From Mesoterricola silvestris (GTDB lineage Bacteria; Acidobacteriota; Holophagae; Holophagales; Holophagaceae), in the NCBI RefSeq assembly GCF_030295405.1, contig NZ_AP027080.1, positions 1,612,001-1,676,000 of the forward strand: a stretch of 64,000 nucleotides of DNA, written 5' to 3'. Shown here piece by piece: positions 23,211 through 43,919 of the stretch. The translations under genes and the position numbers were made by a program. The notes under the pieces are model-generated. The model saw nothing but the letters and a program-made list of their open reading frames with translations. It was not told the origin of the DNA and did not search any database. The stretch's first letter is position 1; every line of letters begins with the position of its first letter.

Positions 23211-25010
23211 ATGAAATTTCGAGACCCCAGGCCATGGTTGGCGAGGAGCCTCGCGACCGCGCCGATGGTACCCCTGGCCTTGGGCCTGGTGCTCAGCCTC
23301 GCCTGCGGCGGCGGAGGTTCGAGGCCCGCGGCCGGCACGATGACGGTGGGCAACCCGCCTCCCGGGAAGCCCACGCCGCCGTCCATCACGGGAACGGCCA
23401 CGGCCGGGACGCCCCTGGTCGGCACGATCACCCTCAAGGACAGTGCCGTCCCGCAGCACGTGCTCACCGCCCCATGCGACGTGGACGGGACCTTCCGTTT
23501 CAACACGGAGGGGTTGAAAGCGCCGTTCATGCTGAAAGCGGAAGGCCAGGCCGGGGGTGTCCGGCGCGAGCTGTATTCGGCGGGCGATAGCTGGGATCTC
23601 GATGGCAAGGTCAACATCACTCCCTGCACCGATGTGATCGTCGCGCTCGCGGCCGGGATGCCGGCCGCCGCCACCTTCGAACAGGGCACCTTTGCACGGC
23701 TCACCCACTCGGTCCTGGAGTTCCAGATGGGCGAGCTCCAACTGGAGACGGCGCCGCTCCTGGCGGCCCTGGGCCTCAGCCCAACCCTGGACTACCTGCA
23801 CGGCTCGATCCCGGCCGACCACACCGGTCCCGGCGCGCTGCTGGACGTGCTCCAGGCCTCCGGGGCGTGGGGCCTGCCGGTGGCGACCCTGCGCAATGCG
23901 GTGAACGGCACCTCTGCGCGCTTCAACCTGGCGACCGGGGTCGTTTCAGGTCAGCTCAGCGGCCTTGGCGTGACCGCGGCCATGGGCGCCTTCCAATCCA
24001 TCCGCGCCGGCATCAAGCGCCTGGAGGACCTGTCCAGGACAGGCACCCCGCCCACGATGGCGCAGATCCGCGAACTGGGGTTCTTCGACCCGGGCGGCTT
24101 CCTCCAGGATGGCCTTTCGTTTCCGGAATGGGTGGACCGGGATCTGCGGCCCCGGTTCGCCGATGGGCTGCCGTTTCCGGCCATGACCCTGGTCTCCGCC
24201 GACGCCCGGAAGGTGATCGTTCGGTTCCAGACCCTCCCGTCAGCCGGCGGCCATTCCGTCCGGAGTCTCGGCCCGTGGGTCTTCCACCGGGATCCCACGG
24301 CGGAGACCTGGGTCTGCGTGGGGAACCAGCGGGACCTGGACGTCCAGCAGTTCGAGCCAATGGTGAGCTACACCCCCTCGGACCCCGTCCAGCCCATCCG
24401 GTCCGGGCTGTACCTCCACCTGGAGGATCCCAAAGGCGTGCTGGGGGCCAACGGATATGCGGTGCTTTCCGGCCCGGGAATCGCCAGCACGCCCTACATT
24501 CCCCCCGTTTCCGGCGCGGGCGCCTTCGAACTCGGCCCCGGCCAGGCGGACCCGTTCCTGGCCGTCACCGAGGACCAGGTCCTTCGGATTCCAGCGTCCG
24601 GTTCCGTCTATGCCCTTGCGCTCTACTCCATGGCCACCGGCGAGCCGGTCCTCGCGGCCACCTACGATCTGCCCCTGGTCACGCCGCCGACTCCCATCGC
24701 CGAGCTCAACCCGGCCTCCTTCGCCACCCTGGGCTCCACCGCCCCAGCGGGCAGCAATTCATCCATCACCCGGCCCATCACCATCCCTGACGACTACGAG
24801 GTCCTCGGCCTTTTGGCCTTCCTGTGGGATGACGAGAGTCATAAGTTCAGCTACCGGGTTAATTATTCGTCTGATGACACCGTTTCCAGGGATAGCTATA
24901 CCATTCCCAGCGATGCCGTTGGAGGCCGGACGTTCTCACACGGCGATGTGAATATCTATTGCAAAAGGCGTAATAGGTACGAACGCAAGATGTTCTTCGA
25001 CGAGTTCTAA
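23211..25010 (+). CDS. large lipoprotein, tandem copy 2
   Basis: 599 residues, lipobox LSLACGGGG. The two start codons are 1,869 bases apart, and the Shine-Dalgarno region is duplicated too, so the whole gene unit was copied in tandem. Most of the protein is nearly the same as copy 1 by eye, with scattered substitutions. The tails differ: after SITRPITIPDDY the residues diverge strongly, sharing only anchors such as DSYTIP and a final acidic/aromatic end (DEF against DSF). The 3' end is AT-rich compared with the body. Function unknown. Confidence 0.8.
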   Translation: MKFRDPRPWLARSLATAPMVPLALGLVLSLACGGGGSRPAAGTMTVGNPPPGKPTPPSITGTATAGTPLVGTITLKDSAVPQHVLTAPCDVDGTFRFNTEGLKAPFMLKAEGQAGGVRRELYSAGDSWDLDGKVNITPCTDVIVALAAGMPAAATFEQGTFARLTHSVLEFQMGELQLETAPLLAALGLSPTLDYLHGSIPADHTGPGALLDVLQASGAWGLPVATLRNAVNGTSARFNLATGVVSGQLSGLGVTAAMGAFQSIRAGIKRLEDLSRTGTPPTMAQIRELGFFDPGGFLQDGLSFPEWVDRDLRPRFADGLPFPAMTLVSADARKVIVRFQTLPSAGGHSVRSLGPWVFHRDPTAETWVCVGNQRDLDVQQFEPMVSYTPSDPVQPIRSGLYLHLEDPKGVLGANGYAVLSGPGIASTPYIPPVSGAGAFELGPGQADPFLAVTEDQVLRIPASGSVYALALYSMATGEPVLAATYDLPLVTPPTPIAELNPASFATLGSTAPAGSNSSITRPITIPDDYEVLGLLAFLWDDESHKFSYRVNYSSDDTVSRDSYTIPSDAVGGRTFSHGDVNIYCKRRNRYERKMFFDEF

Positions 25011-28112: not shown

Positions 28113-29330
28113 CTAGCGGACGGACTCCAGGGCCTCCATCGCCCGGCCGGCCATTTCGTTCTGGAAGGCGGCGAGTTCGGCCGGGGTGCGGGGCTTCCGG
28201 AGGAACTGATCGGTGCGGTCGAAGATGTCCTTTTCCGCGGCCAGGAGCCTGGGCAGGAATCCCGTGCCTTCCCGGTTGTCGACCTTGGAGATGTTCATGT
28301 ATTCCTGCTTTTCGGGGATGCCGTAGAAGGGGCGCTCGATGCGCTTGATGCGCATCGTCTGGGCCCACAGGGGGGCCTCCTTCTCCCCCTTCCAGAAGGG
28401 CTCGGGGGTGATTCCCGCGTCGGGCCACAGGGGAAGGCCGACGGCCGTCATCGGTTCTCCCGGGAGGATCCACATCATGGCCCGGGAGGCGGGGTCCCCG
28501 GGGTCCTTTCCCACCAGGACGACGGTGCAGGCGGTGTCCCAGCGGTTGATGGTGAACTTGTTGTGGATCCACCGTTCAGGCGCCGCGGGCCCTTCCCGGA
28601 ACTGGGAATGGATCGGCGTGTGGAGGAACACGTGGCCGGTGTCCCGGGCGAAATCCCTGAAGATCATGCGCGGGGAGAGCTTGCCGGCAGGTACCTGCCG
28701 GGCCAGTTCCGTGGCGCGTTCGAAGCGCAGGTAGCCGGCGCCGGCATTCTCCTTGCCGCTCCGGGAGAAGTTCGTGAGCACCATGTAGCTTCCGGGGGCT
28801 TCGCTGGTATCGAACTTCTTGAATCCCTTGCTGTTGGCCTCATAGATGAAGGCCTTGCCGGCGGCGTCGAGCACGCCGAAATTGGCGGTCACGTTCAGTC
28901 CCGGGCCCTTCTCCGCGTTCAGGAGGGCCTCGAAATCCTCGACGGTGGCGCATTTCCGGAGGGCGAGCGCCATGATCACGCCCTCCTGGTTGCCGCCGTC
29001 GCCGACCAGCCCGTCCCGCTTCTGTAAATTGTAGGAGGCGGTGTTCATGATCGCGAAGCCCGCGGTGTTCACGCCGGCCCAGACGATGTGGCCGGAGGGT
29101 TCATCCTTGTCCACGACGGCGATGTAGCTGTGGGGCGCCTCCTGGACGTACACCACGCGGTTGGACAATTCCTTCGTGTCCCGGTTCTTCCAGATGAGCG
29201 GGCGATGGTTTTCCGAGGCCGCGGGCGAGATCACGGCGGCGGTGCAGTCCTGGTCCCCCTGGGCGAGGAGGGTAAGGGCTCCCAGCGCCAGGGCCAGCGT
29301 GATCCTCAAGGGGAATGCGAACGGTTTCAT
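28113..29330 (-). CDS. secreted NTN hydrolase, acyl-CoA:6-APA acyltransferase/C45-like
   Basis: 405 residues. After a signal peptide (ITLALALGALTLLAQ) the mature protein begins close to Cys29 in DCTAAVISPAAS, followed by LIWKNRDT. A Cys followed about 20 residues later by KNRD is the pattern of NTN hydrolases related to penicillin acyltransferase (family C45) and choloylglycine hydrolase (C59), where the Cys becomes the N-terminal nucleophile. Likely cleaves an amide bond in the periplasm; substrate unknown. ATG at 29330 is chosen over 29345 because GGAG is better placed. It is the last gene of an operon with two barrels and a TonB receptor. Confidence 0.7.
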   Translation of the reverse strand: MKPFAFPLRITLALALGALTLLAQGDQDCTAAVISPAASENHRPLIWKNRDTKELSNRVVYVQEAPHSYIAVVDKDEPSGHIVWAGVNTAGFAIMNTASYNLQKRDGLVGDGGNQEGVIMALALRKCATVEDFEALLNAEKGPGLNVTANFGVLDAAGKAFIYEANSKGFKKFDTSEAPGSYMVLTNFSRSGKENAGAGYLRFERATELARQVPAGKLSPRMIFRDFARDTGHVFLHTPIHSQFREGPAAPERWIHNKFTINRWDTACTVVLVGKDPGDPASRAMMWILPGEPMTAVGLPLWPDAGITPEPFWKGEKEAPLWAQTMRIKRIERPFYGIPEKQEYMNISKVDNREGTGFLPRLLAAEKDIFDRTDQFLRKPRTPAELAAFQNEMAGRAMEALESVR

Positions 29331-29357
29331 GGGATGTATCTCCATTGACCCAGGTGG

Positions 29358-29960
29358 CTAGAGCCGGTAGCCGACCATGATGCCTGCATAGACGGGGTTG
29401 TTGGGGTTGATGTTCTGCTTCTTCGCCTGGCTGGACTCCGAGCGCCATTCGGAAGCGGTGAGTTCCAGGCTGGCGAACCAGGTGGAGGTGATCGCCACAT
29501 CGAACCCGGCCCGCCACCCGAGCTTCCATTGCTTGTTGGTCAGGGAATTGGTCTGGCTGAGCGTGCTCTGGCCGATGAAGCTGTGCAGGGCCGGCCCGGT
29601 GCGGAAGGCCACGGGGGTCCCCGCGATCTTCCCCCGGTACCAGACCATGTCCAGGCCGAAGCGCCAGGCGCTGACCGTGTAGTATTCCGGTCCCGTGGCC
29701 GTGGAATCCGCGCCGCTGATGCGGAAGGTGCCCACGTAGGGCACGAGGTCCAGCCCGAGATTCCCGGCGTTGGGCAGGTAGCAGGCCCCTTCGAAGCTGG
29801 GGGCGCTGGCCTTGCCGGTCATGCCGTGGAGCTGGCCCATGGACGTGAGCGCGAGGCCCGCCTTGATCTGGAGATGCGTGGTGTCCTGGCCGAAGACCCG
29901 GGCCGGGAGGAAGGCCGCCAGACCCAGCAGGGCCGCGGTGACGAGCTTTTCCATGTTCAT
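29358..29960 (-). CDS. outer-membrane beta-barrel protein
   Basis: 200 residues: signal peptide (TAALLGLAAFLPARVFGQ), then alternating polar/hydrophobic strands and a C-terminal aromatic/hydrophobic end (GIMVGYRL) as in small eight-strand barrels. No specific family is recognised. It lies 13 bases after the TonB receptor and 27 bases before the NTN-hydrolase gene, so it belongs to the same transcription unit. Confidence 0.75.
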   Translation of the reverse strand: MNMEKLVTAALLGLAAFLPARVFGQDTTHLQIKAGLALTSMGQLHGMTGKASAPSFEGACYLPNAGNLGLDLVPYVGTFRISGADSTATGPEYYTVSAWRFGLDMVWYRGKIAGTPVAFRTGPALHSFIGQSTLSQTNSLTNKQWKLGWRAGFDVAITSTWFASLELTASEWRSESSQAKKQNINPNNPVYAGIMVGYRL

Positions 29961-29973
29961 GTTTTCCCCCTGC

Positions 29974-32900
29974 CTAGAAGCGAAGAATGACGTCGGCCGT
30001 CACGTAGCGCGCTCCGGTCCCATAGCTGGCCGTGCCCCAGGTCTTCGCCTGGCTGCCATCCATGCGGTATCCGTTGTAGATGTCCGCATAGGTCTGGTTG
30101 ACCACGGATCCGGTGTTGCTGTTGGTGGTGTTGCTCAGCGAGTTGCCGTAGTAGTAGGTGCTGCTGCGCCCCGTCACCGTGGACTGGTAGAGGTGGTTGA
30201 AGACGTTGTTGACGCGGATCTGGGTCTCCAGCTCCACCTTGTTCATGAGCGCCACTTTGACGTTGTACTGCAGGTTCCAGTTGTAGGTGTCGGGGGCGGT
30301 GTACCGCCCCCGGCCGTTGGTGTAGATGGGGACGATGGTCGGGATATCGGCGCTGCTCGTGAGGCCGGGCACCATGGAGACCCCGATGGAGGCGCCGGAG
30401 GGACTGGTCGTCACCTTCGAGATGAGGCTTTCGTGGAAGCCCGAGGCGTAGGCCCCCTGAAGGGCGATGTTGGAGGACCACTTGCCCCGGGTCATGGCGT
30501 AGCTGATCTGCAGCCTCGCCGAGTGCTCCACGGAGTTGGGCAGGACGCCCGTGGGACGGAATTGGCTGTCCGTGTAGCCCATGGCCCGGTAGGATTCCCG
30601 GAAGTCGCCGGCGTTGGTGTAGCCCTGGTTGGAGGCCGAGCCGTTATCGTCGTTCCAGAGGTTGTTCCCGACGGTCCGGGCCCAGGTGTAATTGCCTCCC
30701 AGGGTCAGGCTCGGGGAGAGGGGCACCTGGAATTCGTACTCCACGCTCCGGAACATCTTGAATCCGTCCGGATCGTTCTTCAGGGTGCGCAGGTAGCTCT
30801 GCTGGGTGATGGAGGGATCCATCACGTTGTATATCTGGATGGTCTTGGAGATATCCGGTTCGGTGTAGCCCAGGTCCGTGTACTTGCGCTGGATCAGGGT
30901 CAGGCTCCACCAGCCGCCCTGGATGAGGTTGCGGCGGTAGCCGAGGGTCATCTCTGTGTTCAGTTCCGGCTTGAAGCCGGGGTCGATGCGGAAGGACTGG
31001 TGGTTCACGAAGGTGCTGCCCTGGGCCTCGTAGTTGGCCGCGTTGTGGATGGCGGCGTAGTCGACCAGGTAGGGGGAATTGGGGTTGCCGGTGGGGGCGG
31101 TGCCGATCCAGTATTTCTGGGTGGCCTGCTCCAGGCGGGTCACCACGAAATTGCGGTAGCTCCGGCCATTGACCAGCCCCCGGAACTGCCCGAAGGAGAA
31201 ATTGAGGACGCGGGTCTGGTTGCCCAGGAGGTCGTACTTCACCTCGAAGCGGGGCGAAAGCGTCTTGGCGTCGGCCTTCACGCTTTCGGGATCGACGATC
31301 TTCAGGTGGTCGTAGCGGAGGCCCGCCATGACCGACCAGTGGTTGTTCAGGGTCCACAGATCGTTGATGTAGAAGCTGTCGTTGGGACTCCTGACCGTGG
31401 CGGATTCCAGGCCTTCGAGGACCTGCATGCGCGGGACCAGGGCCACGTTCACGTTGCCCGACCCCCCCAGGTTGGCGGCCGTGGCCGCCCTATTGAAGAC
31501 GATGAACTGGCCGCCATAGGCCCCTCCCACCGAGGAGGCGATCTGGCCGGGAATGTAGTACCGGGTCGGGTAGCTGGGGCCGCGGCTGGGCGTGCCCCAG
31601 ATGGGCTCCTGCCTCTCGAAGCCCGCATCGATGATGTGCTGGCCGTGCCAGTCCTTGAAGGCGTTGTAGTTGACCAGGATGCTGCGGATCTTCCGGCTAT
31701 CGGGGGCCGTGTCGGCGGTGCCCCCGTCCAGAACGTAGGTCTTTCCCTGGTTGTACATCGAGATCAGGTTCGTGTTGCTGGCGGAGCCCGAATAGAGGGT
31801 GATCGGGGAATTGGGGCCCGCGAAGTACAGCGAATCGGAGCGGTTGACGCCGTAGCGGATCTCGATGATCTGGTTGTTGCCGAGGAGGCCGTGGTAGGAA
31901 AGGCCGTACAGCTGCTGGAAGAACCGGTCGTTGCCGGAAACGCCCGTCTGGGGATTGGATCCGACGGTGGTGGCGGCCTGGGTCTTGTTGACCTCGGAAT
32001 ACTTGTACTCCACCTGGTGGTTCTCGTTGATCTGGTAGAAGAGGGAGTACTGGTTGAACGTGCTGCCGGAGGTGAAGTACCGCGTCCCGCCCTCCTGGTA
32101 GGTCTCGGCCCGGTAGTTCACGCCGCCGAAGGGCACGTAGCCCCCGCCATTGGCCGTCACCTGGGTGGCCGTGGCGGAGGAGAGCACGTCGGGCGTCAGC
32201 CGGGTGCCGTAGGTGAAGGTCAGCCGGTTGGGGATGATGGGACCCGAGATCGTGATCTCATACGTGCGGTTCAGGCTGTCCACGTAGGCCGGATGGTTGG
32301 TGGCGTTGGGGACCCCGAGGCGGTTGTTGAGGGGGGTGTCGTTGGCCACCCAGGAGCCGTTGACGAAGGATCCGCCGGCCACGTCCCCGCCCTTGGAGAG
32401 CTTGGCCCGGATGGAGCCCTTGAATTCGTTGGAGCCGCGCCGGGTCACCTGGGAGACCAGGCCCGAGGACGTGTTGCCCGTCTTGGCGTTGAGGGGGGAC
32501 TGCACCACGGCGGTGCTCTCGATGAGGTCGCTGAGGGTGAACATGTCCAGCCGGCCGCCGGAGGTGAGGCCGTCATAGGCCGCCATGCCGTCCACCATGT
32601 AGTTGACCCCTTGCTGGCCGCCGCCCCGGATGGAGATGTGGGTCATGTCCGTGCCGGCGACGCCCGGCGCCAGGGTCAGCACGCCGTAGGGATCGGCGCC
32701 CGTGAGGGTGGCGATGGTCTCCTGGCTGAAGGAGGTCTGCATGCCGGTTTCGGTCTTGTCCTTCTGGGTCGTGGAGGTGCCCACCACCTCCACGGTGGCC
32801 CCCTGGACCTTCTGGGCCCCCGCCTGGGAGTTGAGCTTCGCGTCCTGCTTGATGGTGCCGCCGGCCGCGATCCGCAATTCGATCTTCTTGCCGATGTAGC

Positions 32901-33150
32901 CGTCGGCCCAGACGGTGATCACGTAGTTGCCGCCGGGCAGCAGGGAGGCGCGGTACGAGCCGTCGGCCCCGGTCTTGATCACCCGCTCGCCCATGAGGGA
33001 CGCGCCGGTGATGCGGACCGCGGCCCCGGCGATGGGCGCGTTCTTGTCGTCGGTGACGTGGCCCGTGATGGTGGAGGTCACCTCCTGGGCCCCCAGGGCC
33101 GAGGTCGCCAGGAGCATGGCCAGGGTCGTGAATCGGTTTGAAATGCGCAT
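29974..33150 (-). CDS. TonB-dependent receptor with carboxypeptidase-regulatory domain (Oar-like)
   Basis: 1,058 residues from ATG 33150. Order: signal peptide, CarboxypepD_reg-like domain (about 25-110; ITGHVTDDKNAPIAGAAV), plug domain (about 125-235; ISIRGGGQQGVNYMVDG), and a long beta-barrel ending in a terminal Phe (ADVILRF). Such receptors import large or scarce substrates with TonB energy. The ATG at 33150 has GGAGGA at normal spacing, whereas the in-frame ATG at 33156 sits directly on it; both are possible. It is flanked by two barrels and a secreted NTN hydrolase in one operon, so the substrate may be an amide-bearing or peptide-like compound (inference). Confidence 0.92.
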   Translation of the reverse strand: MRISNRFTTLAMLLATSALGAQEVTSTITGHVTDDKNAPIAGAAVRITGASLMGERVIKTGADGSYRASLLPGGNYVITVWADGYIGKKIELRIAAGGTIKQDAKLNSQAGAQKVQGATVEVVGTSTTQKDKTETGMQTSFSQETIATLTGADPYGVLTLAPGVAGTDMTHISIRGGGQQGVNYMVDGMAAYDGLTSGGRLDMFTLSDLIESTAVVQSPLNAKTGNTSSGLVSQVTRRGSNEFKGSIRAKLSKGGDVAGGSFVNGSWVANDTPLNNRLGVPNATNHPAYVDSLNRTYEITISGPIIPNRLTFTYGTRLTPDVLSSATATQVTANGGGYVPFGGVNYRAETYQEGGTRYFTSGSTFNQYSLFYQINENHQVEYKYSEVNKTQAATTVGSNPQTGVSGNDRFFQQLYGLSYHGLLGNNQIIEIRYGVNRSDSLYFAGPNSPITLYSGSASNTNLISMYNQGKTYVLDGGTADTAPDSRKIRSILVNYNAFKDWHGQHIIDAGFERQEPIWGTPSRGPSYPTRYYIPGQIASSVGGAYGGQFIVFNRAATAANLGGSGNVNVALVPRMQVLEGLESATVRSPNDSFYINDLWTLNNHWSVMAGLRYDHLKIVDPESVKADAKTLSPRFEVKYDLLGNQTRVLNFSFGQFRGLVNGRSYRNFVVTRLEQATQKYWIGTAPTGNPNSPYLVDYAAIHNAANYEAQGSTFVNHQSFRIDPGFKPELNTEMTLGYRRNLIQGGWWSLTLIQRKYTDLGYTEPDISKTIQIYNVMDPSITQQSYLRTLKNDPDGFKMFRSVEYEFQVPLSPSLTLGGNYTWARTVGNNLWNDDNGSASNQGYTNAGDFRESYRAMGYTDSQFRPTGVLPNSVEHSARLQISYAMTRGKWSSNIALQGAYASGFHESLISKVTTSPSGASIGVSMVPGLTSSADIPTIVPIYTNGRGRYTAPDTYNWNLQYNVKVALMNKVELETQIRVNNVFNHLYQSTVTGRSSTYYYGNSLSNTTNSNTGSVVNQTYADIYNGYRMDGSQAKTWGTASYGTGARYVTADVILRF

Positions 33151-33178
33151 CTTCATTCCTCCTCTGCCGTTCCGCGGG

Positions 33179-33970
33179 TTAAAGGCTCATTCCGAGACTC
33201 AGTTCGAACGTGAATCCCCGGCGAGTCGTCTGGAGGGTGGCCGGCGCCTGGCCGGTGTAGGTGAAGGGCTGGTACGTGAGGCGGGTATAGCTCACGGACC
33301 GCACATTGAACTCCAGGCGGATTTCATCGGTGAGCCGGGTGGTCACGCCGGCGAAGGCGCCCAGGCCCAGCTTCGTCTTCTGGTTGGTGACCGAGAGGCT
33401 CTCGTAGTAGGGCTTTCCCCCCGCGGCGGGATTGGCGATGCCGGTGAGGGCCGTGGCATTGGTGATGGGATACAGGGTGCCGGAAACCTCTTCAGTGGCC
33501 GTGTAGTCGTCCAGCGCGAGGCCGGCCTGCCAATCCCAGGAGGCGGCGAGCCTGTCCCGGTAGCCGGCCCGGAGATTGAAGCCCTGGAAGCGGTTCTTGC
33601 GCATGTCGGCCGAGCCGTAGGCGCCGGAATTGATGGCGATGCGCACGGGCTGGCCGTTGTAGGTCGTGGAAGGCGCGGCGGGGTTGCAATAGAAGGTGCC
33701 GGAGGTGGGCATCCGGTCGAAATCCTTGCCCGGGAAGTACTCGAAGCCCAGGTCCAGGACCAGCCGCCCCCGGGCCAAGGGCACGGAGGTGCCCAGGGCG
33801 ACGCCCATCATGGCCTGGGTTCCCAGGTCCGTGTAGAGATTGCCCTGGGTGAAGCCGCCCCGGAGCTTGACCTCGAAGTTGGACAGGGCGGATTCCTGGG
33901 CGGCGAGGCGGCCTCCGGCGCCCAGGATGGACAGCAGGAGAAGACCGGCCTGGACAATGCGTTTGGACAT
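33179..33970 (-). CDS. outer-membrane beta-barrel protein, first gene of receptor operon
   Basis: 263 residues. Signal peptide (MSKRIVQAGLLLLSILG, ending in LAAQ), then repeated amphipathic strands (NFEVKLRGGFTQGNLYTD, GRLVLDLGFEYFPG) ending in FTFELSLGMSL, consistent with an outer-membrane barrel. ATG at 33970 is preceded by GGGAGGT; an upstream in-frame ATG adds a basic stretch that would spoil the signal peptide. The stop is 28 bases before the receptor gene. The same layout of barrel plus Oar-like receptor is common in Acidobacteriota, but a specific role is unknown. Confidence 0.75.
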   Translation of the reverse strand: MSKRIVQAGLLLLSILGAGGRLAAQESALSNFEVKLRGGFTQGNLYTDLGTQAMMGVALGTSVPLARGRLVLDLGFEYFPGKDFDRMPTSGTFYCNPAAPSTTYNGQPVRIAINSGAYGSADMRKNRFQGFNLRAGYRDRLAASWDWQAGLALDDYTATEEVSGTLYPITNATALTGIANPAAGGKPYYESLSVTNQKTKLGLGAFAGVTTRLTDEIRLEFNVRSVSYTRLTYQPFTYTGQAPATLQTTRRGFTFELSLGMSL

Positions 33971-34133
33971 GGAACCTCCCATGGGAAAGAGAAAGCGGGC
34001 CTGTCGGCGCGGGCCGAACGAAGGTCTGGAGACGCGCTCCACGGCTCAGGTGCGGGGGGTGCGCGGATTCGCCAGGGTTGTGGATCGGTTGCTGTGGGTC
34101 GTGTAGTATTTAGTCAAGAATAGGTACCGGTTC

Positions 34134-34158
34134 GATTAAATCGGATTAATTCTCCCGG
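34134..34158. promoter_or_regulatory. AT-rich motif upstream of response regulator, candidate operator
   Basis: GATTAAATCGGATTAATTC followed by TCCCGG lies in the gap between divergent units, 84 bases before the regulator gene. It contains a near direct repeat (GATTAA, GGATTAA). A close relative occurs at 37998-38023 before dsbD, suggesting a shared regulator site. The remainder of the 33971-34242 gap shows no gene. Confidence 0.4.
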
Positions 34159-34242
34159 CAGCGCGATGGGCCCGCCGACCCTCCTGGCCCTGTTGCTTAA
34201 GCCACTTGTTTCCATGGGTATCCGCCCGGAGAAGGAAGCAGC

Positions 34243-34938
34243 ATGATGCATCGGATCCTGATCGTGGATGATGACCCGGAGGTGCGGAACGTCCTGGTCA
34301 AGATCCTCCGCAGGGCCGGCCTCGGCGCGACCGTGGCGGAGAACGGGGCCCAGGGGCTCGAGATCCACCGCGCCCAGCCGGCGGACCTCATCATCCTGGA
34401 CCTCATGATGCCGGCCATGGGCGGCTTCGAGGTGCTCCAGGCCCTCCGGCCCCGGGATGAAGTGGCCGTGCTCATCCTCACGGCGGAACGGCAGGAGCGG
34501 AAGCGCCTGGATGGCTTCCGCCTGGGGGCCGACGATTACCTCGTGAAGCCGTTCAGCGGAGAGGAACTGCTGGCCCGCATCCAGGCCATCCTTCGGCGAA
34601 CGACCCGGCACAAGGAACCCGACGCCCTCCACTCCGGCCCCTTCGAATTCGATCGCATGAAGCGGGAGATGAAGCGGGACGGATCCTCGCTGGGGTTGAC
34701 CCACGCCGAGTACAACATCGTGGAGGCCCTGCTCACGCATGCCGGCCACGCCCTTTCCCGCCCGGATCTGATCCGCCTGGCCTGGGCGGAGGGCACCCAC
34801 CCCTCCGAGCGCACCGTCGACGTGCACGTGTTCAGCCTGCGCAAGAAGATCTGCCGGAGCAACGATCCCGGCTGGATCCAGACCTGCGGAAGCGAGGGCT
34901 ACTGCTGGGTGAGCCCCGTCCGGATTCCCCGGCGCTGA
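34243..34938 (+). CDS. OmpR-family response regulator
   Basis: 231 residues. Receiver domain (1-115) with acidic pocket LIVDDD, phospho-acceptor Asp53 in ILDLMMPAMGG and conserved Lys in YLVKPFSG. A C-terminal winged helix (about 130-225; LTHAEYNIVEALLTHAG, ERTVDVHVFSLRKKI) is the OmpR/PhoB DNA-binding domain. The partner kinase starts 12 bases downstream. By position it may control itself, the divergent receptor operon and dsbD. Confidence 0.92.
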   Translation: MMHRILIVDDDPEVRNVLVKILRRAGLGATVAENGAQGLEIHRAQPADLIILDLMMPAMGGFEVLQALRPRDEVAVLILTAERQERKRLDGFRLGADDYLVKPFSGEELLARIQAILRRTTRHKEPDALHSGPFEFDRMKREMKRDGSSLGLTHAEYNIVEALLTHAGHALSRPDLIRLAWAEGTHPSERTVDVHVFSLRKKICRSNDPGWIQTCGSEGYCWVSPVRIPRR

Positions 34939-34950
34939 CCGGGAACGCCC

Positions 34951-37900
34951 ATGCGTCTGCGCCTCCTTCTCCTGGTCATGGGTCTCGTCCTGGATTGGGG
35001 ATGGGCAGCCTCGCCGCGCCCGGTTCCCCCCGGGCGGACCCCCTTCCAGGTCTACGGGCCCAAGGACGGGCTCACGAGCCTGAACGCCGTGGCCCTGGCG
35101 CAGGACCACGAAGGCTTCCTATGGGTCGGCACCCTGAGCGGACTCTACCAGTTCGACGGCGTGCGCTTCCGGTGCTTCGGCCTCCGGGAGGGGCTCCCCG
35201 CCGCGAGCATCGCCGCGCTCCTGGTGGGGCGCGACGGCACCCTGTGGGTGGGGACCCGCCGCAAGGGCCTGGCGCGCCGGAGCGGGGACGGCTTCGAATA
35301 CCTCGGCCCGGGCCAGGGCCTGCCCCGCACCGGCTTCAAGGGCATCGCCCAGGGCGGGGATGGCGGGATCTGGGTGGCCACCTCGGAGGGCCTGTTCCAC
35401 AGCCCCGACGGGCGGACCTTTGCGCCCGTGCCGTCCTGGCCCGGCGGACCCGCCCTCGCGGTCGCGGCCGCCGCGGAAAGCGGCCTGGTGTGGGCCAGCG
35501 GATGCCAGGAGATCCACGCCCTCTCCCTGGGCGGCCTCCGGGTCTCCTATGGGCGGGGGGCCGGCTTCAAGGCCACCGACCTCCTGGCCCTGGCCGTGGA
35601 CCGGTCGGGCAACCTTTGGGTGAGGACCACCCAGGCCCTTTCCTTCCTCTCCCCCCGGAGTTCCCGGTTCCGGAATCCCGCCTGGCCCCTTCCCCCGGCC
35701 CGGAACCCTTCCCTGCATGTGGGGCCTTCGGGCGAGGTCCTGGTGAATTCCGACGAAGGGATCCACCTCCTGCGGGGCGATGGCTCCCGGGGCGTCGAAC
35801 GCGTCATCAAGGCCGACTCCCCCTACTGTTCCCTCGTGGACCAGGAAGGCTCCACCTGGATCGGCAGCCGCCACCTTTCCCGCGCCCTGGGCGGGGGAAC
35901 CTTCGAGGTCTACGCGTCCAGGGACGGCCTCCCCTGCGACCTCATGTGGGGCATCCACCGCAGCGGGGACGGCGCCCTGTGGGTGGCCACCCAGAAAGGG
36001 GTGAGCCGGGCCACCGCCCGGGGGTGGGACCTGCTCCCCGGAACCCGGGGGAAGGACACCCGTTGCCTTTCCACCGGACCGGATGGGGCGTTGTGGATCG
36101 GGCAGCGGGAAGGTCCCCCCCTCCGCCTGGATCCGGCGACCCGGAAGCTGGAGGCCTTCGGGCCCGGCTCCGGCTTCCGGGGCAAGGGCGTCAATGACAT
36201 CCTCGCGGACCGGCGCGGCGGCCTCTGGCTCACCCAGCAGGAAGGTGGGCTCTGCCGGGCCTTCCGGTCGGGCCGCTCCTGGCGCTTCGAGGAGGTCCAG
36301 GTGCCCCGGGGAACCCCCAACGAGAACATGTTCGGGATCGTCCAGGATTCCGCCGGCCGGGTATGGGTGGCGGGGGAATATGGGCTGGCGGTGTTCGACG
36401 GCGCCGCCTGGCGGCGGTACACCCTGGCGGATGGCCTCCGGGACGATGCCCTGTACCAGCTCGCCGCATTGCCCGATGGGCGCATCGCGGTGGCCTACCG
36501 GGAAGCGCTGGGCGCCTCCCTCCTGCGGATCACGGGGGGCCGCCTGGAGGTGGACAGGCACCTGGACAAGGGCACGGGACTCGCCGGGGACCACGTGTAC
36601 CTGCTCGGCGTGGATTCCCGCGAGCGGCTGTGGCTGGGCACCGGGACCGGCGCCTCGGTGCTGGACGGGGACCATCTGGATTCCTTCACCACCGGCAACG
36701 GCCTTGCCGGCGACGATTGCGACGCGCTCTCCTTCCTGGGGGAAGCGGATGGATCCGTGTGGATCGGCAGCAACACGGGCCTGAGCCATTTCCGCACGCC
36801 CACCTCGGTTCCGGCGCTGCCCCCCCCGCGCAGCCTCATCCGGGAGCTGTTCGCCTCCGGCAATCCCGTGGCCTTCGACCCCTCCTCGCGGCTGACGCTG
36901 CCGAGGGACCAGAACACGCTGGATTTCCAGGTGTCGGCGCTGACCTTCCTGAACGCGGCCAACGCGGAGCACGAAGTGCGCCTCCTGGGCCTCGAGAAGG
37001 AATGGCAGCCCCTGCAGGGGCGGAGCGCCCGCTACCCGAGCCTGCCCCCCGGAGCCTATACCTTCATGGTGAGGAGCCGGCGCCCCTGGGGGGACTGGGG
37101 GCCCCCGGCGGCCCTGGTCTTCCAGGTGCTGCCCGCGTGGTGGGAGCGCCCGGGGGTGAGGGCCCTGGCGTGGGCCCTCGCGACGGGGCTGGTGGCCGGC
37201 GTCCTCGCCCTGCGCTTCCGGCTGCTCAAGCGCAGGAACGCGGCCCTCCAGGAGAAGGTGGACGAAGCCACCGCCGAGATCCGCAGCAAGGCCGAGACCC
37301 TGGAGCGGGCCAATCTCCGCCTGTCCCAGAGCAACGAGGACAAGACCCACATGCTGGGCATCGTCGCCCACGATCTCCGGAATCCCCTGCACACCATCCA
37401 GCTCCACGCCGAAATGCTGGCGGGCGAAACCGATGTGAAGGAGCTGGAGGAGGGGTCGGCCGCCATCCAGCGCATCTCCCTCCAGCTGCAGGAAATGATC
37501 CAGCATCTCCTGGACCTGTCCCACCTCGAGGCGGGGGGGATGGGGCTCCAGATGGAATGGGTCGAGCCTCTGCCCCTGGTGGAATCGGTGTTCCACATGT
37601 ACGCCCCGAAAGCGGCCGCCAAGGGCATCCGGTTCGAAATCGAGCCCGGGGCCGGGCTGCCGCCGCTCCGGGCCGACCCCTTCTACCTCCGGGAGGTCCT
37701 GGACAACCTGGTCTCCAACGCCGTCAAGTTCACCCCCCCCGGGCCTCCCGTGCGCAGGGTCCGGGCGGTCCTCGCACCGGGCGTGATCGAGATCCGGGAC
37801 GAGGGCCCCGGCTTCAACGACGAGGACCTGGGCAAGGTGTTCGGCCGCTATACACGGCTGTCCGCGCGGCCCACGGCAGGGGAAAGCAGCACCGGCCTGG

Positions 37901-38004
37901 GCCTGAGCATCGTGAAGGCGATCGTCGAGGCCATGGCGGGCGAAATCGAGCTGGAAAGCGCCCCGGGCCAGGGCTCCACCTTCCGCCTCCGCTGGAAGAT
38001 TTAA
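34951..38004 (+). CDS. beta-propeller sensor histidine kinase
   Basis: 1,017 residues. A signal peptide is followed by a periplasmic two-component-regulator propeller (about 35-620) with repeated units such as EGFLWVGTLSGLYQFDG, GTLWVGTRRKGL and RVWVAGEYGLAVFDG. Then come a Y_Y_Y domain (about 640-720), a transmembrane helix (about 738-755), a short coiled coil, HisKA (phospho-acceptor His near 806 in VAHDLRNPLH) and HATPase (DNLVSNAVKF near 918, DEGPGF, STGLGLSIVKAI). There is no fused receiver or AraC domain, unlike many hybrid propeller kinases; its receiver is the separate upstream gene. Propellers of this type often sense polysaccharides or oligomers; ligand here unknown. Confidence 0.93.
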   Translation: MRLRLLLLVMGLVLDWGWAASPRPVPPGRTPFQVYGPKDGLTSLNAVALAQDHEGFLWVGTLSGLYQFDGVRFRCFGLREGLPAASIAALLVGRDGTLWVGTRRKGLARRSGDGFEYLGPGQGLPRTGFKGIAQGGDGGIWVATSEGLFHSPDGRTFAPVPSWPGGPALAVAAAAESGLVWASGCQEIHALSLGGLRVSYGRGAGFKATDLLALAVDRSGNLWVRTTQALSFLSPRSSRFRNPAWPLPPARNPSLHVGPSGEVLVNSDEGIHLLRGDGSRGVERVIKADSPYCSLVDQEGSTWIGSRHLSRALGGGTFEVYASRDGLPCDLMWGIHRSGDGALWVATQKGVSRATARGWDLLPGTRGKDTRCLSTGPDGALWIGQREGPPLRLDPATRKLEAFGPGSGFRGKGVNDILADRRGGLWLTQQEGGLCRAFRSGRSWRFEEVQVPRGTPNENMFGIVQDSAGRVWVAGEYGLAVFDGAAWRRYTLADGLRDDALYQLAALPDGRIAVAYREALGASLLRITGGRLEVDRHLDKGTGLAGDHVYLLGVDSRERLWLGTGTGASVLDGDHLDSFTTGNGLAGDDCDALSFLGEADGSVWIGSNTGLSHFRTPTSVPALPPPRSLIRELFASGNPVAFDPSSRLTLPRDQNTLDFQVSALTFLNAANAEHEVRLLGLEKEWQPLQGRSARYPSLPPGAYTFMVRSRRPWGDWGPPAALVFQVLPAWWERPGVRALAWALATGLVAGVLALRFRLLKRRNAALQEKVDEATAEIRSKAETLERANLRLSQSNEDKTHMLGIVAHDLRNPLHTIQLHAEMLAGETDVKELEEGSAAIQRISLQLQEMIQHLLDLSHLEAGGMGLQMEWVEPLPLVESVFHMYAPKAAAKGIRFEIEPGAGLPPLRADPFYLREVLDNLVSNAVKFTPPGPPVRRVRAVLAPGVIEIRDEGPGFNDEDLGKVFGRYTRLSARPTAGESSTGLGLSIVKAIVEAMAGEIELESAPGQGSTFRLRWKI

Positions 38005-38023
38005 TCCAAATTAATTCCACCGG
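37998..38023. promoter_or_regulatory. AT-rich motif upstream of dsbD, similar to 34134-34158
   Basis: GATTTAATCCAAATTAATTC followed by CACCGG overlaps the stop codon of the kinase gene, 90 bases before the dsbD ATG. It resembles the site before the response-regulator gene (about 20 of 25 positions with one gap), at nearly the same distance from its start codon. Confidence 0.35.
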
Positions 38024-38113
38024 CCCCTACCTTGGTTGAAGATCCTCCACCCGACTCTTCCCATCGAGGGCAAGCCCTGGGGCCTCCCCCCCACGGAACC
38101 CGCCGGAGAACCC

Positions 38114-39838
38114 ATGCGCCCGCTGAAAGCCCTGTTCCTGATGCTCCTCGTCCAGGCCGCGGCCCTGGCGCAGCCCGCGGACTTCGATCCGGAAAAGAGC
38201 GTGGCGGTGGGGCTCGCCAAGGGCGTGGTCACGGTGACCGCCCCTCCGGGCTCCCACCTGAAGCAGAGCTTCATGCAGGTGGAACTGCAATCCAAGGGGG
38301 GCCGGATCCACCTGGGCCGCATGACCCCTCCCGACGGGAAGGACGATCTGGGGGAAGCCATCTGGCACGGGTCCGTGAGGATTCCCATCACCGGCGAGGG
38401 GCTGAAGGGGCCCGTGGCCCTGGCGGTCACCTACCAGCCCTGTCTCGAGGGGGAAGGCGGCGCCTGTTACCCGCCCACCACCCGGACGCTCCTCGTGAAG
38501 GCCTCCGATATTCCGGAATCCCCGGCCGCCGCGGCGGCAACGGAATCCGCGGCGGCCCCGGAACCCCCCCGGGCCGTGGCCGCGCCGAAGGTCGAGGCGG
38601 TCCCCGGGGCGGCGGTTCCCCGGGAGCCCTCCGGCCCGGGCCTTCCCTGGACCCTGATGCTGGTGTTCCTGGCCGGCATGGGCGCGAGCCTCACGCCCTG
38701 CGTCTATCCGATGATCCCCATCACCCTGGCCATCATCGGCGCCAAGGGCGGGGGCAGGGCCCGCGGCCTCGCCCTTTCCGCCATGCTGGTGCTGGGCATG
38801 GGCCTCACCTACTCGGTGCTGGGCGTCCTCGCCGCCCGGAGCGGGGCGGCCTTCGGCGCCTTCGCCCAGAAACCCGCCTTCCTGATCCCCGTGTCGGTCC
38901 TGTTCACGGCCTTCGCCCTGTCGCTTTTCGGCGCCTTCGAGATCGCCCTTCCGCAGAGCCTTGCCGGCCGGCTCCAGGGGGGCGGCGCCCGGAAGGGCTT
39001 CGGCGGGGCCTTCGTCATGGGCATGGTGCTGGGACCCCTCTCGGCGCCCTGCGTGGGGCCGATCGTGGGCGCCGTGCTGGTGGCGATCGCCCAGAAGGGG
39101 GATGTACTCCTGGGCGGGCTGCAGCTGTTCGTCTTCGCCCTGGGCATGGGGGTGCTCTTCCTGGTGGTGGGCACCTTCGCCGCGGGCCTGCCCCGGAGCG
39201 GCGAGTGGCTGACCCGCTTCAAGCGCGTCATGGGGTTGGTGGTGCTGGCCTTCGCGGCCTGGAACCTCCGGCTCCTGGTGCCCGGGTGGGCGAACCTGGC
39301 GGCGGGGAGCCTGGTGACCCTGGTCGGCGCGGCGACCCTGGGCGCGTTCGAGCCCGCCGGCGGGTTCCTCGCCCAGGTGCGCAAGGCCCTGGCGCTGCTT
39401 CTGCTGGCCTGCGGCCTGCTGCTGGGCCTGCGGTCCCTGGAGGCGGCCCTCCAGGTGGACCTGCTGCCCCGGAGCTCCGCCGCCCCGCCGGTCCAGGATG
39501 CGCACGCCGGCTGGATGGTGCAGGACTACGAAGGCGCGCTCCGCAAGGCCAAGGCGGAAGGGAAGCTGGTGCTGGTGGACATCTACGCCGAGTGGTGCGC
39601 CCAGTGCAAGGAACTGGACGAGGAAACCTGGCCGGACCCGGCGGTGAAGGGCTGGATCGCCCGCAATGCGGTTGCCGTCCGTCTGGACACCGACGGCAAG
39701 CGGAAGGATCTCGCGTCCGCCCTCCGGGTCCAGAGCTACCCCACCGTGATCCTCATGGACGGGGAGGGAAGGGAAGTGCGCAGGCTCCTGGGTTTCCACA
39801 AACCGGAAGGAATGCTCGGCTTCCTGAACAGGGGCTGA
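38114..39838 (+). CDS. dsbD: thiol:disulfide interchange protein DsbD
   Basis: 574 residues. After a signal peptide comes the periplasmic alpha domain with its Cys pair (PCLEGEGGACYPPTT near 120-133). An Ala/Pro linker follows, then a CcdA-like membrane domain of about eight helices with redox Cys in TPCVYPMIP and SAPCVGPIV, and a C-terminal thioredoxin-like gamma domain with AEWCAQCKELDEETW. It carries electrons from cytoplasmic thioredoxin to periplasmic partners. ATG at 38114 has GGAG six bases upstream and begins a good signal peptide. The next gene is a secreted thioredoxin-like protein, a likely client. Confidence 0.92.
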   Translation: MRPLKALFLMLLVQAAALAQPADFDPEKSVAVGLAKGVVTVTAPPGSHLKQSFMQVELQSKGGRIHLGRMTPPDGKDDLGEAIWHGSVRIPITGEGLKGPVALAVTYQPCLEGEGGACYPPTTRTLLVKASDIPESPAAAAATESAAAPEPPRAVAAPKVEAVPGAAVPREPSGPGLPWTLMLVFLAGMGASLTPCVYPMIPITLAIIGAKGGGRARGLALSAMLVLGMGLTYSVLGVLAARSGAAFGAFAQKPAFLIPVSVLFTAFALSLFGAFEIALPQSLAGRLQGGGARKGFGGAFVMGMVLGPLSAPCVGPIVGAVLVAIAQKGDVLLGGLQLFVFALGMGVLFLVVGTFAAGLPRSGEWLTRFKRVMGLVVLAFAAWNLRLLVPGWANLAAGSLVTLVGAATLGAFEPAGGFLAQVRKALALLLLACGLLLGLRSLEAALQVDLLPRSSAAPPVQDAHAGWMVQDYEGALRKAKAEGKLVLVDIYAEWCAQCKELDEETWPDPAVKGWIARNAVAVRLDTDGKRKDLASALRVQSYPTVILMDGEGREVRRLLGFHKPEGMLGFLNRG

Positions 39839-39914
39839 ACCCATCGCGATTCCCGGTCCCGTGGAATCATGAACAACCTAGGAATCCATCCCGCCCTTTC
39901 CCAAAGGAGGCACC

Positions 39915-40385
39915 ATGATCAACGTTTCCGTTCCGACCTGCCTGCTGCTGCTCCCTTGCTTGGCCGCAAGCGCCAATCCCCCTGCCAGCGGGCTCGCCTG
40001 GGGTACGGACCTGGACGCCGGAAAGGCCCTCGCCGCCAAGGAGAAGAAGGACGTGGTGGTCTACTTCACCGGTTCCGCCTGGTGCCCCTTCTGCAAGGTC
40101 CTCCACGCGGAGCTCCTGCCTTCCCGGGCCTTCGCTGATTTCGCGAAGGACAAGGTGCTGGTGATGCTCGACTATCCGCCGATGTCCGGGCGTTCCGAGG
40201 AGAAGATCAAGGCCCAGCCCGGCCTCGCCCGGCTCATGCGGATCAAGGAGCAGTTCGGGGTCAAGCTTTTCCCCACGATGCTGGTCCTGGGCCCGGACGG
40301 GAAGGAGAAGGCCCGAAAGAGCGGCTACCCCAAGGGCAAAGCCCCGGAAGCCTACCTGGCGGAGCTGATGGCGCCGAAATCCTGA
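39915..40385 (+). CDS. periplasmic thioredoxin-like protein (WCPFC)
   Basis: 156 residues: signal peptide (CLLLLPCLAASA), then a thioredoxin fold with active site GSAWCPFCKVLHAELL and cis-Pro region FGVKLFPTMLVLGPDG. An insertion between the active site and the cis-Pro (DYPPMSGRSEEKIKAQPG) is typical of DUF255/Thioredoxin_7-like proteins. Strong AAAGGAGG ribosome site. Probably reduced by the DsbD encoded 76 bases upstream. Substrate unknown. Confidence 0.85.
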   Translation: MINVSVPTCLLLLPCLAASANPPASGLAWGTDLDAGKALAAKEKKDVVVYFTGSAWCPFCKVLHAELLPSRAFADFAKDKVLVMLDYPPMSGRSEEKIKAQPGLARLMRIKEQFGVKLFPTMLVLGPDGKEKARKSGYPKGKAPEAYLAELMAPKS

Positions 40386-40526
40386 TGGTCCCGGTTGAGC
40401 GGGTCCCCGTTCATCCCATCGATCGGCGTTCATCCCGGTTTCCGCAGGGCTGACCCAGAGGTGGGTCGGAGCGCAAGTTCCTTTCGGCTGGCCATGACCG
40501 TCCTGGGGAAGCCGGAAACCGAGATC

Positions 40527-40568
40527 AAAATTTAGTTTCGATAATTTCCGAATTGTATATGATTGTCA
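40527..40568 (+). promoter_or_regulatory. AT-rich promoter/operator region of the first arsR operon
   Basis: An AT-rich stretch in GC-rich surroundings contains the imperfect dyad TTCGATAATTTCCGAA (40538-40553) and a TATATG-like -10 candidate, 45-85 bases before the ArsR gene. Position and composition suggest the self-regulated operator, but the dyad is weak. Confidence 0.35.
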
Positions 40569-40612
40569 TGACGGTCCCTGGCCCTCAGGGCTGCTTGGAA
40601 AGGACGCGGGGC

Positions 40613-40996
40613 ATGACGGACGATCTCAGATCGCTGGTGGAACGGCTGAAGGCGGTCTCGCATCCCTTGCGGATGCGGGTGCTCGGGTTGCTGGGGTCAG
40701 GCGAACTCTGCGTGTGCCAGGTGGCGGAGGCGCTGTCCGTACCCGCCTCCTCGGTGTCGGAGGCCCTGCGGGAGTTGCGCCGGGCGGGGTTCGTGGCGGA
40801 GCGCAAGGAGGGGCGATGGGTTTTCGTGTCGCTTCCGAACCCTCCAACGCTCCTGCTGGCCAGTCTTTTGGTTGAAGTAGAGGCGCTCCCCGAAATCAGC
40901 CGGGATCGCGCCCGGATCGCCGAAGTCAAGGGAATGCCGGTCCAGGAAGTCTGCCGGAAACACCTTTCTGCGGCCGCGGAGGCCTCCCATGGCTGA
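40613..40996 (+). CDS. ArsR-family metalloregulator 1
   Basis: 127 residues, winged helix. ELCVCQVAEAL (Cys33, Cys35) is the ELCVC metal-binding motif of the alpha-3 helix in arsenic/antimony-sensing ArsR repressors; VPASSVSEALRELRRAGF is the recognition region. The ATG at 40613 gives the usual family length and has AAGGA upstream; in-frame ATGs at 40568 and earlier lie in the presumed operator. Its 3' end overlaps the permease gene by 8 bases. Likely represses the seven-gene operon 40613-44300 in the absence of As(III) or a similar thiophilic metal. Confidence 0.88.
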   Translation: MTDDLRSLVERLKAVSHPLRMRVLGLLGSGELCVCQVAEALSVPASSVSEALRELRRAGFVAERKEGRWVFVSLPNPPTLLLASLLVEVEALPEISRDRARIAEVKGMPVQEVCRKHLSAAAEASHG

Positions 40997-42062
40997 GGTC
41001 CGGTGCTGCGAAAACCCCGTGCCCGCCCCCGGGAGGGCCGGATGGTTCCGCCGGGGGGGCTGGTTGTTCCTCGCCCTCCCCCTCTGGGCCCTGGCCTACA
41101 GCGTCATCCAGCGCCTGGCGGGATGGGTCGCCTTCCACCTGTTTGGCCTGGCACCCGGATCGCACCTGGGGGAGGCGGTGGCCTTTTTCCTTTACGATGT
41201 GCCCAAGGTACTGCTCCTCCTCGCCCTCATCGTTTTCGTCGTCACCTTCCTCCAGACCTTCGTGAGCCCGTCCCGGGTGCGGGACGCGCTTTCCAGACGG
41301 AACGCGGGCCTGGGCAACGCCATGGCCTCGCTGTTCGGCATCGTCACACCCTTCTGCTCCTGCTCGGCGGTGCCGCTCTTCATCGGCTTCCTGCGGGCGG
41401 GGGTCCCGCTGGGGGTGACCTTCAGCTTCCTGGTGGCCGCCCCCATGGTCAACGAGGTGGCCCTCGGAATGCTGTTCGCCATGTTCGGGTGGAAGATCGC
41501 CCTCCTCTATGCGGGGACCGGCGTGGCTATCGCCTTTTCCGCAGGGCTGATCCTGGGGCGGCTGCGAATGGAGCGCCACCTCGAGGGGTGGGTCCAGGAC
41601 GCCCTGGGCGCCCCGGCTCTGGGTGAGTCTGGGGAGGAACGCCTCACCCTCTCCAGCCGGATCGATCAGGCCGTCCAGGGGGTGCGGGACATCGTGGGGA
41701 AGGTCTGGCCTTACATCCTGGCGGGCATCAGCGTGGGCGCCTTCATCCATGGGTTCGTGCCCGAGGCCTTCATGGCTGGTTTGCTGGGCAAACAGGCCTG
41801 GTACAGCGTGCCCCTGGCCGTGCTGATCGGCGTGCCCCTGTATTCCAACGCCGCAGGTGTGATGCCCATCGTGGAAGCCCTCCTGGGCAAGGGGGCGGCC
41901 TTGGGTTCCACCCTGGCCTTCATGATGGCCGTCATCGGCCTCTCCCTGCCGGAAATCGTGATCCTGCGCCGGGTGATGCGCCCGCGCCTGATCGGCGCGT
42001 TCGTGGCGGTGGTGGCCCTGGGCATCGTCCTGGTGGGTTATCTCTTCAACGCCATTCTTTAA
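40989..42062 (+). CDS. permease of the ArsP/SO_0444 (DUF318) family
   Basis: 357 residues with about eight to ten membrane helices. TPFCSCSAVPLFIGFLRAG near residue 119-137 is the conserved Cys-rich motif of this permease family, whose known members export trivalent organoarsenicals (ArsP) or are proposed Cu/Zn exporters (SO_0444). GVPLYSNAAGVMPIVEAL repeats the pattern in the second half. An N-terminal CCENP segment and a central cytoplasmic loop are also present. The substrate is inferred from the ArsR gene before it and the ArsM gene nearby; methylarsenite or another soft metal are both possible. Confidence 0.82.
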   Translation: MAEVRCCENPVPAPGRAGWFRRGGWLFLALPLWALAYSVIQRLAGWVAFHLFGLAPGSHLGEAVAFFLYDVPKVLLLLALIVFVVTFLQTFVSPSRVRDALSRRNAGLGNAMASLFGIVTPFCSCSAVPLFIGFLRAGVPLGVTFSFLVAAPMVNEVALGMLFAMFGWKIALLYAGTGVAIAFSAGLILGRLRMERHLEGWVQDALGAPALGESGEERLTLSSRIDQAVQGVRDIVGKVWPYILAGISVGAFIHGFVPEAFMAGLLGKQAWYSVPLAVLIGVPLYSNAAGVMPIVEALLGKGAALGSTLAFMMAVIGLSLPEIVILRRVMRPRLIGAFVAVVALGIVLVGYLFNAIL

Positions 42063-42072
42063 GGAGTCCGAC

Positions 42073-42306: not shown

Positions 42307-42352
42307 ACCGCATCCCTATCGTTCACATCATTCCATCCCCAAAGGAGATCCC

Positions 42353-43443: not shown

Positions 43444-43444
43444 A

Positions 43445-43915: not shown

Positions 43916-43919
43916 CGTG

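Follow-up and report, generated by a model that had tools for sequence, protein, structure and literature searches.

A sensor-linked outer-membrane import locus with a secreted cysteine hydrolase in Mesoterricola silvestris, tentatively linked to acidic peptides or amides

What might a bacterium gain from a locus in which a TonB-dependent receptor, two small barrel-type proteins and a secreted hydrolase are encoded back to back with a response regulator and a sensor kinase? Such a six-gene locus lies in the 64-kb stretch of the Mesoterricola silvestris genome that we analysed (hereafter the window: positions 1,612,001-1,676,000 of a single-contig 5.0-Mb genome). We tentatively propose, at a little under an even chance, that the unit senses, imports and hydrolyses aspartyl or glutamyl peptides or amides. 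The machinery is well supported, and its substrate we infer from the company that its parts keep in related genomes. Each part belongs to a known kind, and the modules that they form are exchanged among related genomes. A literature search yielded no paper that we recognised as describing this operon, and none was found on Oar-like receptors in Acidobacteria.

The original prediction, made from the DNA alone, had described six genes, all of which are present as open reading frames. They are listed here in window coordinates, together with the predicted regulator-binding site.

28113-29345, minus strand (likelier start 29330): hydrolase, secreted, of the cysteine N-terminal-nucleophile (Ntn) type; C45/PF03417 by sequence, with a C69-dipeptidase-like fold
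29358-29960, minus strand: BB2, small outer-membrane barrel of the OMP_b-brl kind
29974-33156, minus strand: Oar-like TonB-dependent receptor
33179-34042, minus strand (likelier start 33970): BB1, small secreted protein and probable outer-membrane barrel, which opens the operon
34131..34156, plus strand: predicted regulator-binding site, direct repeat RTTAA-N5-RTTAA with a 10-bp period
34243-34938, plus strand: OmpR/PhoB-type response regulator (Response_reg, Trans_reg_C)
34951-38004, plus strand: propeller sensor histidine kinase (Reg_prop, Y_Y_Y, HisKA, HATPase_c)

The minus-strand genes run in the order BB1, receptor, BB2, hydrolase with spacings of 12-27 bp, and are two modules: a BB1-receptor-BB2 cassette and the secreted Cys Ntn hydrolase. 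The regulator, assigned to the OmpR/PhoB family with both domains over their cut-offs, is separated by 12 bp from the kinase, and this pair is divergent from the operon across an intergenic region of 272 bp if BB1 starts at 33970.

Relatives were sought in 77 genomes of the family (M. silvestris included, several fragmented) and in 396 genomes of the phylum. A first scan of genome contigs with one sequence found no relative; another scan gave 440 relatives of the hydrolase, of which the best 80 were kept (the 80 named loci). The cassette sample comprises 40 fetched loci chosen for matches to BB1, the receptor or BB2. Genes in the loci were called with our own script under two training schemes. 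Either scheme put part of the loci in a wrong frame, and self-training gave wrong calls in the window itself, so a combined run was used. Some called hydrolase starts are wrong, for example in L039, L044, L063, L067, L071 and L073, where they lie behind the nucleophile Cys, and in L069 no hydrolase was called.

A predicted pairing of regulator and operator, shared with relatives, ties the two-component genes to the operon. All four of the closest regulators in the 77 genomes (G064 67%, G044 63%, G046 63%, G009 53%) are, by their coordinates, divergent from a BB1 gene. Kinase orthologues (61-68%) lie near the regulator orthologues in G044, G046 and G064, in the last as pieces on two contigs; unlike the window kinase, they face the regulator. 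BB2 cannot be judged in these loci, where the contigs end within or just behind the receptor. The intergenic regions of loci L148, L153 and L154 carry GGTTAAAGCCTGTTAAAT and that of the window carries GATTAAATCGGATTAATT; in each, RTTAA is repeated directly at a period of 10 bp. With a weight matrix built from three non-redundant sites of relatives, excluding the window site, 34131 ranks first in the 64-kb window at a score of 21.9 (runner-up 10.6), and the highest score reached elsewhere in this genome, over 145 kb, is 14.6. The pattern GRTTAANNYNNRTTAADT, widened to fit all of these sites, has 18 matches in the 77 genomes and a single one in M. silvestris, the window site. Nine of the 18 (M. 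silvestris one, G044 three, G046 three, G064 two) all fall in these loci, and these four genomes are the ones with regulator and kinase orthologues. The other nine are found in nine of the remaining 73 genomes, and reversing the pattern as a control gives 10 matches, spread over nine genomes. Because the pattern was built from the sites, its scarcity elsewhere alone counts as evidence. The region of the G009 regulator lacks the pattern; GTTACA occurs there twice, 10 bp apart, a post hoc reading by eye.

Further copies of the repeat stand in L148 and L153 upstream, in the direction of transcription, of a short secreted C45 hydrolase (67.2 bits against PF03417 in L153) and of an N-formylglutamate-amidohydrolase-like (FGase-like) gene. 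L155 has a copy ahead of the FGase-like gene and none ahead of the hydrolase. A racemase-like gene is present in L148, L153 and L155, and a symporter of the GltP/DctA type (glutamate, aspartate or dicarboxylates) in L148 and L153. Thus the same regulator-operator pairing accompanies both a BB1-receptor unit and a secreted amidase of the C45 type in two settings, although receptor and hydrolase subfamily are not the same in the two. No other single observation speaks as strongly for joint action of the six genes. The regulator very probably acts through this operator on the operon. The tie that the original prediction had drawn between the two-component genes and the operon is therefore strengthened by the shared predicted operator and the divergent BB1 genes. 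Its expectation of a conserved six-gene layout fared less well, and the refuting condition that it set for itself applies in part: the complete layout was seen in one of the 77 genomes (several of them fragmented), that of M. silvestris itself, and BB1 or BB2 was found in none of 40 hydrolase neighbourhoods. Modules are swapped among relatives, yet the regulator keeps its BB1 partner.

A looser form of the pattern, RTTAANNNNNRTTAAN, occurs at 10 places in the M. silvestris genome (12 matches), and besides the window site these include one at the end of the kinase gene. This second repeat of the loose type lies at 38001-38015 of the window on the minus strand and points away from the DsbD-like gene that follows. 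Control of that gene by the repeat was considered and not adopted, given this orientation and its misfit to the narrower pattern. In two cassettes, L139 and L146, BB2 is followed by a further regulator (46-47%). The L139 cassette, whose regulator is the 46% relative, has Asp/Glu-racemase-family and C92 amidase-like genes a little way downstream, a few genes on (L139:16722-18268).

What does the unit act upon? We put forward an acidic-amino-acid substrate class tentatively, on the basis of the genes found beside the hydrolase (cyanophycinase, beta-aspartyl-peptidase, M14 peptidase), the regulator (the FGase-like, racemase-like and symporter genes above) and the nearest receptor (an asparaginase-like gene). 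In G045, two copies of an operon carry a receptor, a cyanophycinase (TIGR02069), an M14 peptidase, a beta-aspartyl-peptidase (TIGR01975), the hydrolase, a YfcC-like transporter and an M28 peptidase, with cyanophycinase and beta-aspartyl-peptidase exceeding their cut-offs in the first copy; in G043 the central portion of this gene order is seen on a short contig. A cyanophycinase lies 1.9 to 9.7 kb from the hydrolase in six of the 80 named loci, and in none of 40 control loci. Two of the six are from a single genome, three are from other Acidobacteriota and one is from a Bacteroidales genome. M14 peptidases occur in seven of the 80, once fused to the hydrolase (L199), and receptors also in seven. 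The closest orthologue of the window receptor, in G053 (51%, tree pair support 1.0), belongs to a cassette followed by a 193-residue protein of unknown kind and then by an asparaginase-family protein that reaches the cut-off of neither asparaginase type; the window's hydrolase and kinase have no counterpart beside it.

Several observations weigh against an acidic substrate. Most of the 80 named loci have none of the peptide-degradation genes searched for, and no catabolic transporter, racemase or peptidase lies beside the window unit. The control set for the neighbour counts, the 40 cassette loci, comes from one bacterial family and is an imperfect control. The hydrolase of L148 and L153 belongs to another subfamily than that of the window. 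The window and G053 receptors group together with sugar-type cassettes (0.99 in a midpoint-rooted tree). M. silvestris has a cyanophycin operon at about 3.81 Mb, some 2.2 Mb from the window unit, which lacks the hydrolase, as does the full cyanophycin operon of G018. Across the family, a cyanophycinase is present in six of seven genomes with the hydrolase and in 33 of 70 without it, which is not significant (Fisher p 0.11) and lowers our confidence both in an acidic substrate and in the beta-aspartyl dipeptidase idea raised below. The single cyanophycinase match of the genome is at 3,809,754, with none among the genes of the unit. We did not adopt the view that the window unit acts directly on cyanophycin, since the genome's own cyanophycin operon lies elsewhere and lacks the hydrolase.

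The chemistry of the hydrolase is better constrained than its substrate. Its sequence matches PF03417 (AAT) at 31.7 bits (cut-off 23.2), scores 55.1 against the C45 model NF040521 of NCBIfam, below the cut-off of 85, and has no match to the C69 family in Pfam or NCBIfam at E <= 0.01. Its secretion is read by eye from a hydrophobic N-terminus ahead of the putative nucleophile, Cys29 if the protein starts at 29330. Among the columns that are invariant across 41 aligned sequences are C29, R50, D51, N96, N187 and R229, which we take to agree with the residues used for catalysis by bile salt and penicillin V hydrolases. Of the 80 named relatives fetched, 53 were examined; 52 of these have the motif Cys...WKNRD or a variant close to it, and the 53rd has the Cys with YKHRD. 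As judged by eye, the motif Cys mostly follows a hydrophobic stretch, making it the putative N-terminal nucleophile after cleavage; the start chosen in L168, L180 and L191 leaves just 12 residues ahead of it. The AlphaFold model (pLDDT 93.8) has as its closest fold the C69 cysteine dipeptidase 5iau (VIA-align Z 33.2, root-mean-square deviation 3.2 over 344 residues, 13% identity). Residue 29 aligns with residue 9 of 5iau, a Cys according to the title of its C9A mutant, so that the nucleophile is in register. Lower Z scores were obtained for 3gvz (23.1), isopenicillin N acyltransferase 2x1c (21.9), penicillin V acylase (19.6), NAAA (19.4) and bile salt hydrolase (18.7), and a profile of the hydrolase sequence matched 3gvz alone among solved structures (1.3e-6). 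The modelled fold indicates an amide or peptide hydrolase without indicating which one, and very probably the protein is an active Cys amidase or dipeptidase.

This fold leaves room for a less specific substrate. The same sensing and import unit could serve general peptides or N-acyl amino acids with no acidic preference, the hydrolase being a broad periplasmic dipeptidase or aminoacylase. The C69 dipeptidase-like fold accords with such a role, as does the distribution of the family, which is widespread and often has no recognisable pathway neighbours. Under the thresholds used, the hydrolase occurs in seven of the 77 family genomes at eight places (E <= 1e-10, M. silvestris counted) and in 49 of the 396 phylum genomes (E <= 1e-30). 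Named relatives at 53-54% identity are from uncultured Holophagaceae. Acidobacteriota supply most of the best 80 of the 440 relatives, and Bacteroidales, Ignavibacteria, Calditrichota and other groups contribute some. However, aspartyl and glutamyl enzymes recur near the hydrolase, the regulator and the nearest receptor, and we consider a general peptide substrate rather unlikely.

The behaviour of the cassette bears on whether the substrate could be sugar-linked. Gene calling gave 33 complete co-directional BB1-receptor-BB2 cassettes in 31 of the 40 fetched loci, and relatives of the individual genes are common in the 77 genomes: BB1 in 35 (E <= 0.001), receptors in 34 (E <= 1e-60) and BB2 in 17 (E <= 0.001). 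The receptor has CarboxypepD_reg, Plug, TonB barrel and OMP_b-brl_4 domains and ends in F. BB2 on its own scores 0.0085 against OMP_b-brl, below the cut-off; 16 of 17 members of its family match OMP_b-brl PF13505 at E <= 0.01 (best 6.9e-13). A single-sequence fold of BB2 failed (pLDDT 31.7), and its profile match to OmpA among solved structures (0.042) is too weak to use. BB1 is probably an outer-membrane barrel, judging from a signal-like N-terminal stretch, a C-terminal strand and a weak Opacity match (0.0043, below the cut-off); its profile of 16 members has no match to a solved structure at E <= 0.1.

The genes beside the cassette, for which one representative per setting was scanned, differ from setting to setting. 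One combines GH109, DUF3472 and ROK genes with those for an epimerase, a nucleotidyltransferase and a kinase of the APH type; another, also found in the M. silvestris genome (L140), has SIS, PfkB, aldolase and GatZ genes. Others have an arabinofuranosidase with GH127 (arabinan), GH3, an amidohydrolase, or an asparaginase-family protein with a seryl-tRNA synthetase nearby. Given these differing catabolic genes, N-acetylgalactosamine (GalNAc) types among them, the cassette behaves like an import module with exchangeable cargo, and that it is an outer-membrane import unit is very likely. The cargo of sister cassettes bears out the original prediction of a sense-and-import unit in which an amidase-type enzyme replaces sugar enzymes. 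In L126, L129, L135 and L124 (L124:1480-2751), a gene of the seryl-tRNA synthetase family (scanned in L129) lies directly behind BB2, and an asparaginase-family gene stands close by or flanks the opposite side.

The cassette might instead import an amino sugar or a glycopeptide, from which the hydrolase would strip the N-acyl or peptide part. Sister cassettes carry sugar enzymes, and the clade of the window receptor includes GalNAc, arabinan, GH3 and GH63-type cassettes (0.99), a grouping that keeps a glycan substrate alive. However, the operon itself has no sugar enzyme by Pfam, and the nearest receptor is followed by an asparaginase-family protein rather than a sugar enzyme, which makes this alternative improbable. 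The bile-salt-like or beta-lactam-like substrate suggested by the original prediction is not sustained and is now very improbable: the Ntn fold is common to penicillin V acylase and bile salt hydrolase, but the C69 dipeptidase is far closer, neither the hydrolase nor anything else in the genome matches CBAH PF02275, and the family is an environmental acidobacterial one. That the divergent units are neighbours by chance, with no functional link, would fit the presence of the full layout in one of 77 genomes, but is highly improbable given the shared operator and the divergent BB1 partner in relatives.

If the substrate is indeed an aspartyl or glutamyl peptide or amide, the propeller kinase would sense a periplasmic signal and phosphorylate the OmpR-type regulator. 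The regulator would then bind the direct repeat between its own gene and BB1 and control transcription in both directions. Judging from its family and from sister cassettes with catabolic cargo, the BB1-receptor-BB2 cassette would draw on TonB energy to take the compound through the outer membrane. An amide or peptide bond would then be cut in the periplasm by the hydrolase, whose putative nucleophile Cys is a few residues behind the signal peptide, and the products may enter the cell via general transporters. The sensing part of this arrangement has few counterparts near hydrolase copies elsewhere. No called gene in the 120 neighbourhoods examined matched the propeller part of the kinase at E <= 1e-6, and 11 genes there matched its kinase core, with an OmpR-type pair close by in one genome (L070, equal to L211).

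How does this unit compare with known systems? Sus-type loci of Bacteroidota combine SusC/SusD with hybrid two-component regulators. Like them, the window has a receptor operon beside a propeller sensor, a receptor with a carboxypeptidase-like N-terminal domain and, around its sister cassettes, exchangeable catabolic cargo. Unlike them, none of the operon proteins matches the SusD family in Pfam, two small barrel-type proteins being present instead, and the enzyme is an amidase rather than a glycosidase. The kinase also differs from hybrid two-component systems (HTCS) in having neither receiver nor helix-turn-helix domain by Pfam, both of which are in the separate regulator gene. The enzyme shares its closest fold and the register of its Cys with the C69 cysteine dipeptidase of Lactobacillus farciminis (5iau), but is secreted and, at 13% identity, has no C69 sequence match. 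With the C45 acyl-CoA:isopenicillin N acyltransferase (2x1c) it shares the PF03417 match and the Ntn fold. In the fungal isopenicillin N acyltransferase the Cys lies behind a long pro-part, whereas that of the window hydrolase directly follows a signal-like stretch; the window hydrolase further has an extra C-terminal part in common with the C69 enzyme (aligned range to 405, versus 307). The cyanophycin utilisation locus, as set out in PMC10206079, comprises cyanophycinase, isoaspartyl dipeptidase and transporter; close homologues of the hydrolase lie within such operons in G045 and on the short G043 contig, but the window unit has neither cyanophycinase nor isoaspartyl dipeptidase.

We speculate, as a long shot, that the hydrolase family represents a periplasmic dipeptidase so far overlooked, with beta-aspartyl (cyanophycin-type) or other acidic isopeptides as substrates, and perhaps also the isoaspartyl dipeptidase that is still to be discovered in Bacteroidota. 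Holophagaceae would use it either in cyanophycin operons or, as in the window, behind a separate sensor-controlled outer-membrane cassette. The accessible text of PMC10206079 names M14 or AstE-type proteins as isoaspartyl dipeptidases for cyanophycin dipeptides, says that those of Firmicutes and Bacteroidota remain undiscovered, and does not contain the term 'C45'. PMC3400609 places a receptor gene beside the cyanophycinase gene in Citromicrobium, and in PMC8528874 marine Acidobacteriota are predicted to use cyanophycin. The cyanophycin operon of M. silvestris itself (G000:C1:3806865-3814540; L261:6865-14540) has a receptor, cyanophycinase, M14 peptidase and beta-aspartyl-peptidase. These are followed by a LysA-like pyridoxal-phosphate decarboxylase, which scores under the LysA cut-off and takes the place that the hydrolase and the YfcC-like transporter have in relatives.

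The wider value of the locus lies in its parts. The import cassette of Holophagaceae resembles Sus-type systems without a SusD-like partner, its interchangeable cargo ranging from sugar catabolism to amidases, and the repeat offers a concrete candidate operator. Further, a large and little-characterised family of secreted C45-type hydrolases becomes linked to acidic-amino-acid polymers such as cyanophycin, whose last-step enzyme is said, in PMC10206079, to be missing in some phyla.

Some members of this family are fusions: to an M14 peptidase (L199:4568-6649), to BPL_N with HEAT (L180:10043-12334, L194:1691-4039) and to TPR repeats (L186:9192-11210). Elsewhere in the window, two adjacent genes at 21396-25010 (574 and 556 residues by our gene caller) are related to each other; the second, taken as 23211-25010, has no Pfam family at E <= 0.01. 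To the right of the kinase, 38036-50486 reads by eye as a thioredoxin/DsbD and arsenic-type island with an ArsR-like gene, a permease and an ArsC-like gene, the Pfam scan here covering the DsbD-like gene alone.

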